A DNA stretch of 64,000 bases, from NCBI RefSeq assembly GCF_011745365.1, contig NW_024468909.1, positions 5,208,001 to 5,272,000 on the forward strand, read 5' to 3'. The translations under genes were made by a program, and so were the position numbers. Below, one piece after another: positions 20,397 to 22,860 of this stretch; position 1 is the stretch's first letter, and every line of letters begins with the position of its first letter. The notes below the pieces were generated by a model that was not told the DNA's origin, searched no databases, and saw nothing but the letters and a program-made list of their open reading frames with translations. This DNA is from Cryphonectria parasitica EP155. Taxonomy: Eukaryota > Ascomycota > Sordariomycetes > Diaporthales > Cryphonectriaceae.

Positions 20397-21571
20397 ATGG
20401 CCAATACTCGCGAGATGTTTTATGTTGGCGGCAGATATGTTCATCATGGAGCTCGTGGTCAACTCATGCAGGGGCAGATGTATGTCGAGCATCTCAAGCC
20501 CTTGTCAGGAACTGGGCAACAACAAGAACAACCATATCCAGTAGTCTTCATCCATGGTGGCACGCGGACCGGTGCGGTATGTACTTACGTCAAGTCAGCT
20601 GAAGGACGTTTCTTAGAGATGTGATCAAACCAATCTTCAACAAAGTCTGCCAGGCTGAAGCAAAAGCACTGCAGGACTGGCTCACCAAGCCTGATGGCAA
20701 TCCGGGCTGGGCTGACTACTTCCTCTCTCGCGGCTACGAGATCTATCTCGTGGACGTCCCTTACCGCGGGCGGAGCCCCTGGAACCCCAGCGTCGAGGAC
20801 GTCATCACTTTCGCGGCCGAAACAATACAGGAGAGGTTCACTGCGTGCGCCCAACACGGCACATGGCCCCAGGCCAAACTGCACACTCAGTGGCCCGGCT
20901 CGGGCCTCCAGGGCGACCCGGTCTTCGACCGCTTCTTCGCCTCGGGCGTCCAGATGATACGCAGCCAGGAGAAGCAGGAACTGGCCTCGCAGGCCGCCCT
21001 CGCCGAGCTGCTGGACCGTATCGGGAGGCCGGTGCTCTTCCTGTCGCACTCGAACGGCGGCGGTACGCCGTACCTGGTGGCGGACGTCCGGCCTCGGCTG
21101 GTCAAGCTGATTGTCTCTGTCGAGCCAAAAGGCCCGCCGTTTGGAGGCATCGGGATGCTGCCGGGTGCGGGGAGCCAGTATGGTGTGTGCCAGACACCTA
21201 TCACATATGAGCCACCGGTGGTGGATCCCAAGAAGGATTTGGTCAAGATAACCAGAAGTGCTGCATCTCCGGCCCTGCGTGACGCGATACTGCAGGCCGA
21301 CTCTCCGCCCCCTCGAAAACTGGTCAACTTGACACACATTCCGGTGCTTGTGGTCACGGGGCAGGCCTCCTACCATGCTGAGTACGACTGGTGCACTGTG
21401 GAGTATCTGCGGCAGGCTGGCGTGGAGACCGAGCATCTCCAGCTGGCGGAACGAGGCATTCTGGGGAATGGTCATATGATGTTTATGGAGAAGAACAGTG
21501 ATGAAATCGCGTCGGAGATAGACAGGTGGATTGCGCAGACACTGGTCAGGCTCTCAGTTGACAAGACCTGA
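20397..21571 (+). CDS. alpha/beta-hydrolase (esterase/lipase-like)
   Basis: Two exons, 20397-20576 and 20675-21571, give 358 residues. The intron has a GTATGT donor and the acceptor CTGCAG; a nearer acceptor (20659) is in the same phase, but joining TGA directly to DWLTKPDG fits the family better. Features are an oxyanion-type HGG (FIHGGTRTG), the fungal block GWADYFLSRGYEIYLVD, a nucleophile elbow SHSNGG with Ser near residue 186, and a candidate catalytic His in GNGHMMF near residue 326. No clear signal peptide is present from the ATG at 20397. The family usually has a longer N-terminus, so an upstream exon may be missing or the start lost. The substrate is unknown. A long open frame antisense to this gene is a codon-bias shadow. 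Confidence 0.82.
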
Positions 21572-21820
21572 TATCACCAGCCCTGCCAAAATGCTGTGGG
21601 CAGGGGATCTTGGCTTGGATCCGTGCATGAAAGGCCAAGTTTTGGCTGCAAGCCTGTCACACCAACATAGACTTATGAAGCTGATCGCCTTCTGTCATCA
21701 TTCTCAATAGGGATGTTGTATGACTGGCTCAGATGATTTTGTATATAACGGCACGAAAATCGGCGGGAACCTCAAGAAAAGCTGCCCGGCTAGCTCAATC
21801 GGTAGAGCGTGAGACTCTTA

Positions 21821-21839
21821 CAGAGTTTCCGATTCTGAA
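21821..21839 (+). other. canonical tRNA intron after position 37
   Basis: 19 bases between A37 and A38 of tRNA-Lys(CUU), the usual place for eukaryotic nuclear tRNA introns cut by the tRNA splicing endonuclease. Confidence 0.85.
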
Positions 21840-21855
21840 ATCTCAAGGTTGTGGG

Positions 21856-21913
21856 GTATGTGAATGGTCAAAATCATCTCGTGCTCAAAATTTCGTTTTA
21901 ACAATGTATCCAG
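21856..21913 (+). other. intron-like 58-base insertion at the T stem/loop border of tRNA-Lys
   Basis: Starts GTATGTG and ends ATCCAG, with TTTTAAC about 13 bases before the end. These match fungal spliceosomal donor, branch and acceptor signals, and 58 bases is a usual intron length here. Exact removal restores the T arm. The last G of the insert replaces G53, so most of the internal B box (GTTCGACCCC) stays readable. Confidence 0.75.
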
Positions 21914-21953
21914 TTCGACCCCCACGTCGGGCTCAATTCCCGTCTACGATCTA

Positions 21954-21965
21954 TTTTTTATTTTT
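21954..21965 (+). terminator. likely Pol III terminator of tRNA-Lys
   Basis: T6 at 21954-21959 followed by T5 at 21961-21965, about 20 bases after the tRNA 3' end. Confidence 0.7.
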
Positions 21966-22860
21966 CCCCTTTTCATGTTCTCTTTCTCACTTCCTCTTGC
22001 ATTTACACTTTATGTTGTGTAAAAGCCGTTTCACTACCTCCCTCCTTTTTCTTTTTGTTTTCAAGATCTGGTTCGTTACAATTTTAACCACTTGAATAGT
22101 TTTTGTGCCCGAGTGGGAAGAGTCATGAGTTGGGGAGTGCCTCCAAAATCTCGACAGGGCTGTAGTTACAGGTCCAATAAGCAGCGGCAGTCCGTGAAAA
22201 TGTTTTGCTCAGTAAGTACTTACTTATTGTTGTAAGTGGGTGGTCCGGTACGTCAGGCTCAGATTTAGCAAGTAAATTCGTTGTAGGGTTCCTCATATCT
22301 ATTCATGTTTCATGGTACAGTATATCATGTACAAGAAGACAACACGCCCGTGTGCTTTCCTCTTAGCAGTTTGGAAATATTGAACGAACATGTCATGCTG
22401 GTTGTTTCAATTCGTTTTGTTAGTCTTGAATTGTTGTAGTATTATTTTCCCTCTCTTCAGCGCACGCCTGGTTTAATTGTAATGAGATACGACTCTGTGA
22501 TCCAAGTTCCTTCAAGTATCTCTGGAATGTCACGATGTTTGAAATTAGTAGTGCCATAAGGCACGAAGAGTTGGCTGCACTAGGGTTAGGACATAACGGA
22601 ACCCCCCCCATGAGGGTTACACTCTGGCAGCCGCAGACCCCTGCACGTCCTGCTATACTATGTTAGTGCTGTAGTCGTAAATCGAATCAATTGCAGCTTG
22701 ATTGGCAGCGCGTGTGGCCCGTGCTCAAAAAATTACTGCAACTCGAGTCGAGTTCTCACCAGCACCTCGCGACGCTCAACAACCGTGATTTTCTTCCACC
22801 TTGGGCCCATTCATCTCCTCTCCTTGCGTTTGTGGTTCTGTCGTTTTTCCCTTATTCAAA
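21966..22860. other. intergenic, promoter side of EF-Tu
   Basis: No supported gene. An 8-C run lies at 22602-22609. The 22700-22860 part is the likely leader of the EF-Tu gene. Confidence 0.45.

Follow-up and report, generated by a model that had tools for sequence, protein, structure and literature searches.

In Cryphonectria parasitica EP155, a nuclear gene for tRNA-Lys(CUU) contains, besides its ordinary intron at positions 37/38, an insert of 58 nt at positions 53/54 which is quite probably a short spliceosomal intron of the U2 type residing in a gene transcribed by RNA polymerase III (Pol III), and which would be excised from the precursor. The gene occupies positions 21784-21933 of the window, i.e., the whole stretch of 64,000 nucleotides that was analyzed (GCF_011745365.1, contig NW_024468909.1, positions 5,208,001 to 5,272,000 of the forward strand), and its exons of 37, 16, and 20 nt add up to 73 nt between the mature 5' base 21784 and the last mature base 21933. 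Protein comparisons agree with C. parasitica or a very near relative as the host: a DnaJ gene of the window shows 99% identity, over 97% of the query, to a protein of C. parasitica, and the closest named EF-Tu proteins are those of Cytospora, Gnomoniopsis, and Discula, which belong to the Diaporthales. A wider reading appears on balance probable, in which the genes of one nuclear tRNA have been colonized by true spliceosomal introns and their transcripts pass two unrelated splicing machines, the terminal AG of the intron rebuilds the B box, the splicing signals have outlasted the intron interiors, and the spliceosome helps to set the supply of tRNA-Lys(CUU). The comparison of gene copies suggests that tRNA-Lys(CUU) from the interrupted copies needs two different splicing machines to mature.

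Layout of the gene and its sister copies

The gene (Table 1) is built as an earlier note on this DNA had proposed, with a cloverleaf of tRNA-Lys(CUU) that becomes complete once two inserts are removed, one being the normal intron after position 37 and the other the 58 bases at 21856-21913, which separate the T stem GTGGG from the T loop TTCGACC. The identity of the tRNA rests on exon pieces equal to those of three sister genes with full cloverleaf and with CUU outside the introns. These uninterrupted sisters align end to end to the Rfam tRNA model at 55.6-55.9 bits, and the alignment places the CUU anticodon before the 37/38 intron. The earlier note had also recommended listing the tRNA-Lys(CUU) copies of the genome in order to see whether any lacks the insert. 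A genome-wide search that used the locus as query (assembly of 43.8 Mb in 17 contigs, simple repeats being skipped by the search) gave 9 matches at six genes, all of them tRNA-Lys; three of the six tRNA-Lys(CUU) genes carry the T-arm insert and three do not. All 73 bases of the mature tRNA are letter-identical in the six genes. The 37/38 intron consists of the same 19 nt in four of the six copies, and is altered and 22 nt long in C4 and C2.

Table 1. Features of the tRNA-Lys(CUU) locus in window coordinates, and further copies of the gene in the genome
Feature	Position	Strand	Description	Basis
TATA-like element TATATAA	21742..21748	+	42 to 36 bases upstream of mature 5' end; putative role
Exon 1	21784..21820	+	acceptor 5' strand, D arm, anticodon arm to position 37, anticodon CTT	sister-copy alignment and Rfam tRNA model
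Presumed Pol III A box	21791..21802	+	TAGCTCAATCGG	consensus as we assume it
Ordinary tRNA intron at 37/38	21821..21839	+	19 nt	copy alignment and Rfam model
Exon 2	21840..21855	+	position 38, anticodon stem 3' strand, variable loop, T stem 5' strand; ends GTGGG	copy alignment
Insert at positions 53/54	21856..21913	+	58 nt, read as spliceosomal intron	genome copies, pattern searches, signal statistics
Putative 5' splice site GTATGT	21856..21861	+	same in 3/3 interrupted copies
Branch-site-like TTTTAAC	21896..21902	+	followed by 11 nt to insert end; weaker match than CTAAC of two paralogues
Putative 3' splice site CAG	21911..21913	+	CAG in window copy, CAG in C5, TAG in C4
Presumed B box, rebuilt over junction	21912..21922	+	insert AG followed by TTCGACCCC; GGTTCGACCCC in uninterrupted genes	consensus as we assume it
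Exon 3	21914..21933	+	T loop, T stem 3' strand, acceptor 3' strand, discriminator T	copy alignment and Rfam model
3' trailer CAATTCCCGTC	21934..21944	+	same in all six genes
Pol III terminator-like T runs	21954..21965	+	T6, A, T5	sequence
Interrupted copy C5	C5, about 619.6 kb		insert 59 nt
Interrupted copy C4	C4, about 4650.8 kb		insert 58 nt
Uninterrupted copy	C9:2714613		55.9 bits	Rfam tRNA model
Uninterrupted copy	C1:4760178	-	55.9 bits	Rfam tRNA model
Uninterrupted copy	C2:2351909		55.6 bits	Rfam tRNA model

Beyond the trailer CAATTCCCGTC, the 3' flanks of the six genes are partly alike, most of all between C4, C5, and C9. Upstream, a leader hairpin of 5-6 bp whose 3' strand includes the first tRNA bases folds in five of the six copies (L002-L006), with a C-G to U-A exchange between the three uninterrupted copies (GCGCC/GGCGC) and the copies C4 and C5 (GCGTC/GACGC). 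This hairpin sequence is missing from the window copy, where another stem of 5 bp closes a loop of 15 nt.

The interrupted genes are poorly recognized by the usual tools. The window gene reaches 22.5 bits in the Rfam tRNA model, which is below the gathering score of 29 bits, because the alignment omits the T arm and matches GTGGGGTA to the acceptor 3' strand; the C5 and C4 copies score 35.5 and 22.3 bits, respectively. Consistently, a Rfam scan at gathering level did not find the window gene, and ARAGORN called no gene at this locus. With two of the three interrupted copies below the cut-off, standard tRNA models can therefore miss such genes. The uninterrupted genes were read by ARAGORN as tRNA-Val(tac), apparently because the 37/38 intron is not removed; this reading was rejected, as the Rfam alignment gives CUU instead. 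In the Rfam tRNA search of the genome, 63 of 990 first-look candidates were scored and 61 of these lay over the cut-off. A further tRNA match of 48.4 bits (L121:2998-3109) is absent from the genome-wide tRNA list, which is thus incomplete.

Putative splicing signals and drift within the inserts

The inserts of the window, C5, and C4 copies, with lengths of 58, 59, and 58 nt, all sit at one junction and have their end signals in common. The donor GTATGT, which fits the fungal GTRWGT, is present in 3/3 inserts, and so is an acceptor YAG (CAG, CAG, and TAG). Each insert further features a YTAAC element, namely TTAAC followed by 11 nt in the window copy, CTAAC followed by 11 nt in C5, and CTAAC followed by 12 nt in C4. 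The TTTTAAC pointed out in the earlier note is thus present, though 11 bases from the end of the insert and not about 13 as stated there. Fungal introns are described in an available excerpt by a donor GTRWGT, a branch element RCTRAY located 6-36 nt before the acceptor, and a terminal YAG (PMC5832005), and the inserts match this consensus, save for the TTAAC of the window copy in place of CTRAY.

Apart from their ends, the inserts have drifted freely. For the interiors, defined as the inserts without their first 6 and last 18 bases, fractions of 0.22, 0.33, and 0.20 of 2000 shuffles reach the observed pairwise scores, whereas for whole inserts, ends included, none of the three pairs is equaled by any shuffle (0/2000 each). 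Had the leading columns drifted as the interior did, agreement of 3/3 inserts in the first six bases would have a probability of about 2e-7. Taken by itself, the branch element is a weak argument, since shuffled interiors contain YTRAY at a suitable distance in 24-30% and CTRAY in 11-12% of cases. For comparison, five native introns of 60-120 nt were placed in three protein genes of the window by means of tblastn gaps, with exact ends chosen by hand as GT..AG. Their donors are GTAAGT (three), GTCAGT, and GTACAT, with GTATGT in 0/5; CTRAY lies 8-27 nt from the end, and four end in CAG and one in TAG. As the shortest of these five measures 60 nt, the inserts fall 1-2 nt below this small sample, which, like the lack of GTATGT among the native donors, counts against the spliceosomal reading. 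Linear GT, branch, and AG signals combined with free interiors point to the spliceosome. Of the two origins considered in the earlier note, a spliceosomal-type intron or a non-canonical tRNA intron, the former is favored by three paralogous inserts with common donor, branch-like, and acceptor elements and no common interior, and excision would follow from it.

The latter origin, with the insert as a substrate of the tRNA splicing endonuclease like the ectopic introns of archaea and some algae, is unlikely. Introns of this kind are described for archaea, the red alga Cyanidioschyzon, and the Guillardia nucleomorph, and many of the Guillardia introns lack a defined bulge-helix-bulge according to the available excerpts (PMC3978253; PMC4033280). 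Besides, the endonuclease presumably acts already on this pre-tRNA at 37/38. Nevertheless, such an intron would lie at 53/54 and so outside the usual nuclear site 37/38, with exceptions in some algae, and it would leave three inserts of unrelated interior with linear splice signals in common. A folding check for a bulge-helix-bulge, as suggested in the earlier note, revealed no strict motif at the T-arm junctions of 3/3 copies, also when slid by one base (at most 2/4 central pairs). This test argues only weakly against the endonuclease, as the ordinary 37/38 intron, used as a control, fails it likewise (at most 2/4). A group I or II self-splicing intron was also considered and rejected. The Rfam search detected no catalytic core: the window gave no gathering-level match to any family, and none of the 4 matches at E<=10 within 21500-22300 was to a group I or II intron family. 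Moreover, 58 nt is too short for either type.

The spliceosomal reading gains from the rarity of the arrangement. The insert is not a chance feature of one locus, because two more tRNA-Lys(CUU) genes carry inserts of 58/59 nt at the same junction and with the same end signals. The pattern GTATGTN{34,64}AGTTCRANNC, covering donor to T loop, has 18 matches in the genome, and a T stem of 5/5 pairs occurs only in the three tRNA-Lys genes, the next best two showing 4/5. Searches with the donors GTAAGT (21 matches) and GTGAGT (18 matches) gave a best T stem of 4/5 and none of 5/5 among the 20 of 39 matches checked; the remaining 19 belong by their letters to one repeat family, three checked members of which have a T stem of 2/5. 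A pattern joining A box and B box at the spacing of the insert matched 12 places in the genome, including these three genes and no other recognized as a tRNA. Likewise, a long-gap pattern of both boxes gave 7 genomic matches, none recognizable as tRNA, and a second one 17 matches, with one recognizable tRNA that has a long ordinary intron; the other A-box/B-box matches were judged by at most 80 bases each. A concatenated query of 31 tRNA types found 41 places and no gene split in two among the 40 of 65 candidates scored; the 31 types do not include Lys-UUU, Phe, and His, among others, and doubtful intron calls of ARAGORN underlie part of the exon joins in the query. In viral and bacterial/archaeal contigs the patterns had 0 matches, as expected for a fungal nuclear gene. 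The searches also touched a dispersed AT-rich repeat (GTRAGTRAAATGCTRTRRA...AAGTTCAAAAC) at many places, e.g., C2:375687, C4:2362358, and C11:45072, with many C/T and G/A differences between copies, which we take to be possibly a mark of repeat-induced point mutation.

That a small mobile element was inserted separately into three genes at a preferred site would account for the common position, but is extremely unlikely, as the three inserts have no internal sequence in common and the locus search yielded tRNA-Lys genes only (9 matches at 6 genes, simple repeats skipped).

The three uninterrupted copies could supply the tRNA, which counts against the spliceosomal reading. The earlier note had held that intact single-intron genes elsewhere, together with a lack of transcripts, would make the locus a dead copy. 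Such genes do exist (3/6); a dead copy does not follow from them, since none of the three interrupted copies shows exon decay. Dead copies, in which the insert would never be removed and translation would rely on the uninterrupted genes, are accordingly very unlikely, even though the low Rfam scores of the interrupted genes (35.5, 22.5, and 22.3 bits) would fit them. A pseudogene test counted 0 changes over the 73 nt of every interrupted copy, despite inserts that have drifted to shuffle level, and their 5' flanks (300 nt) are not alike beyond shuffles. The 3' flanks are, with local scores of 25, 29, and 41 against shuffle maxima of 21, 26, and 22, so that the copies are either not saturated everywhere or have exchanged sequence. 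However, a gene conversion that keeps exons would have to spare the insert with its splice signals, and would tend to remove or homogenize the insert. Undecayed exons beside inserts at shuffle level, in genes whose 5' flanks are likewise no more alike than shuffles, argue for selection on the mature tRNA and thus for removal of the insert, as we infer from the sequences.

Proposed transcription and maturation of interrupted genes

The position of the insert appears compatible with an internal promoter. With its final AG, the insert restores G53 of the Pol III B box and thereby preserves the promoter: uninterrupted genes have GGTTCGACCCC, and interrupted ones have AGTTCGACCCC because the insert ends in AG, with 10 of the 11 bases kept. 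If two machines do process this tRNA, introns may be tolerated for the very reason that an intron-terminal AG at this site rebuilds the box. Further elements surround the gene, since TATAWA occurs within 60 upstream bases in 3/6 copies (window, C5, and C1b) and a run of at least 5 T begins 20-27 bases past the gene end in all six. The roles assigned to TATA, B box, and T runs are those generally attributed to such elements in Pol III genes.

The usual substrates of spliceosomes are capped Pol II RNAs, and read-through of an upstream gene, spliced as an intron of a 3'-UTR or of a non-coding RNA while the Pol III product stays unspliced, would be in line with this. The genomic surroundings permit it at two loci, as genes of the same strand lie just upstream: an ORF for an alpha/beta-hydrolase ends 212 bases upstream of the window copy and one for a glycosyl hydrolase of family 3 ends 221 bases upstream of the C4 copy. 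At the C5 locus, in contrast, the 1500 bases upstream contain no ORF of at least 150 aa on the same strand, but four of 102-128 aa. Moreover, excision of the insert, which has one and the same position at the three loci, would give back an exact tRNA, and T runs of at least 5 follow each tRNA gene, all of which makes splicing of a Pol II read-through transcript very unlikely as the explanation of the insert. Pol III remains the favored polymerase, since both the internal promoter and the T runs stay in place at all three loci despite the insert.

According to this order of events, Pol III would make a pre-tRNA with two introns. The spliceosome would cut out the 58-nt intron, upon which the T loop can form, and tRNA endonuclease and ligase would take out the 19-nt intron at 37/38. 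Trimming of the 5' and 3' ends, which reads the T arm, would probably come after the spliceosomal step. As to its origin, the intron probably entered a single ancestral gene from which the interrupted copies descend, perhaps through reverse splicing as proposed for the U6 intron of fission yeast, and its interior was afterwards free to drift.

Comparison with other non-coding RNA introns

Descriptions of nuclear tRNA introns usually assign their removal to the tRNA endonuclease. The reading proposed here would add a tRNA to the non-coding RNA genes that are known to harbor spliceosomal introns, and the intron would be excised from it. The intron of U6 genes, with a length of about 50 nt, offers a close comparison. 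Fungal U6 genes (Schizosaccharomyces pombe and others) likewise harbor an mRNA-type intron in a short structured Pol III RNA, and reverse splicing was proposed as the origin of the fission-yeast U6 intron (PMC10484740, in the available excerpt). Unlike a tRNA, U6 is itself part of the spliceosome, so that the landing of an intron there is explicable. The host genes of fungal ribosomal RNA and of U2 snRNA yield Pol I or Pol II transcripts, which distinguishes them from tRNA. Otherwise, ascomycete rDNA and the U2 snRNA of Rhodotorula resemble the present case by mRNA-type introns in fungal non-coding RNA genes (works cited in PMC2586383), and spliceosomal introns are described altogether in fungal U6, U3, U2, and rRNA genes (PMC10484740; PMC5832005; PMC2586383). 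In fungal U3 genes, GTRWGT/RCTRAC/YAG introns occur and some genomes mix copies with and without them, as in the present genes, although the host RNA there is a snoRNA (PMC5832005).

Introns outside 37/38, with several in some tRNA genes, are described for archaea, Cyanidioschyzon merolae, and the nucleomorph of Guillardia theta (PMC3978253; PMC4033280; PMC8450103). Unlike the spliceosomal type proposed here, these are tRNA endonuclease substrates at bulge-helix-bulge or relaxed motifs, many Guillardia introns being without a defined one, and a GT-branch-AG signature goes unmentioned in the available excerpts of these sources (PMC3978253; PMC4033280; PMC8450103). As of 2017, no small structured RNAs other than U3 and U6 were said to be known as frequent hosts of an intron (PMC5832005, excerpt). 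In titles and abstract openings of the open-licence literature, a spliceosomal intron in a nuclear tRNA gene was not found reported, though this does not establish that none has been published.

If the spliceosomal reading is true, the spliceosome would be productive on a Pol III transcript of a kind quite different from U6, and the maturation of a tRNA would be partly under the control of pre-mRNA splicing. Moreover, the coexistence of interrupted and uninterrupted copies in one genome would allow the gain of introns through reverse splicing to be tested in a natural setting.

Two matches to other non-coding RNAs in the present genome count against the spliceosomal reading, as they show no intron. 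The U6 match (L065; the only match, with 47 of 3351 candidates scored) covers 106 bases for 105 model positions and is therefore without intron. U3 introns are described in the vast majority of the Pezizomycotina analyzed (PMC5832005, excerpt). The U3 match at L121:1501-1774 (minus strand; the only match, with 24 of 639 candidates scored) aligns without an intron.
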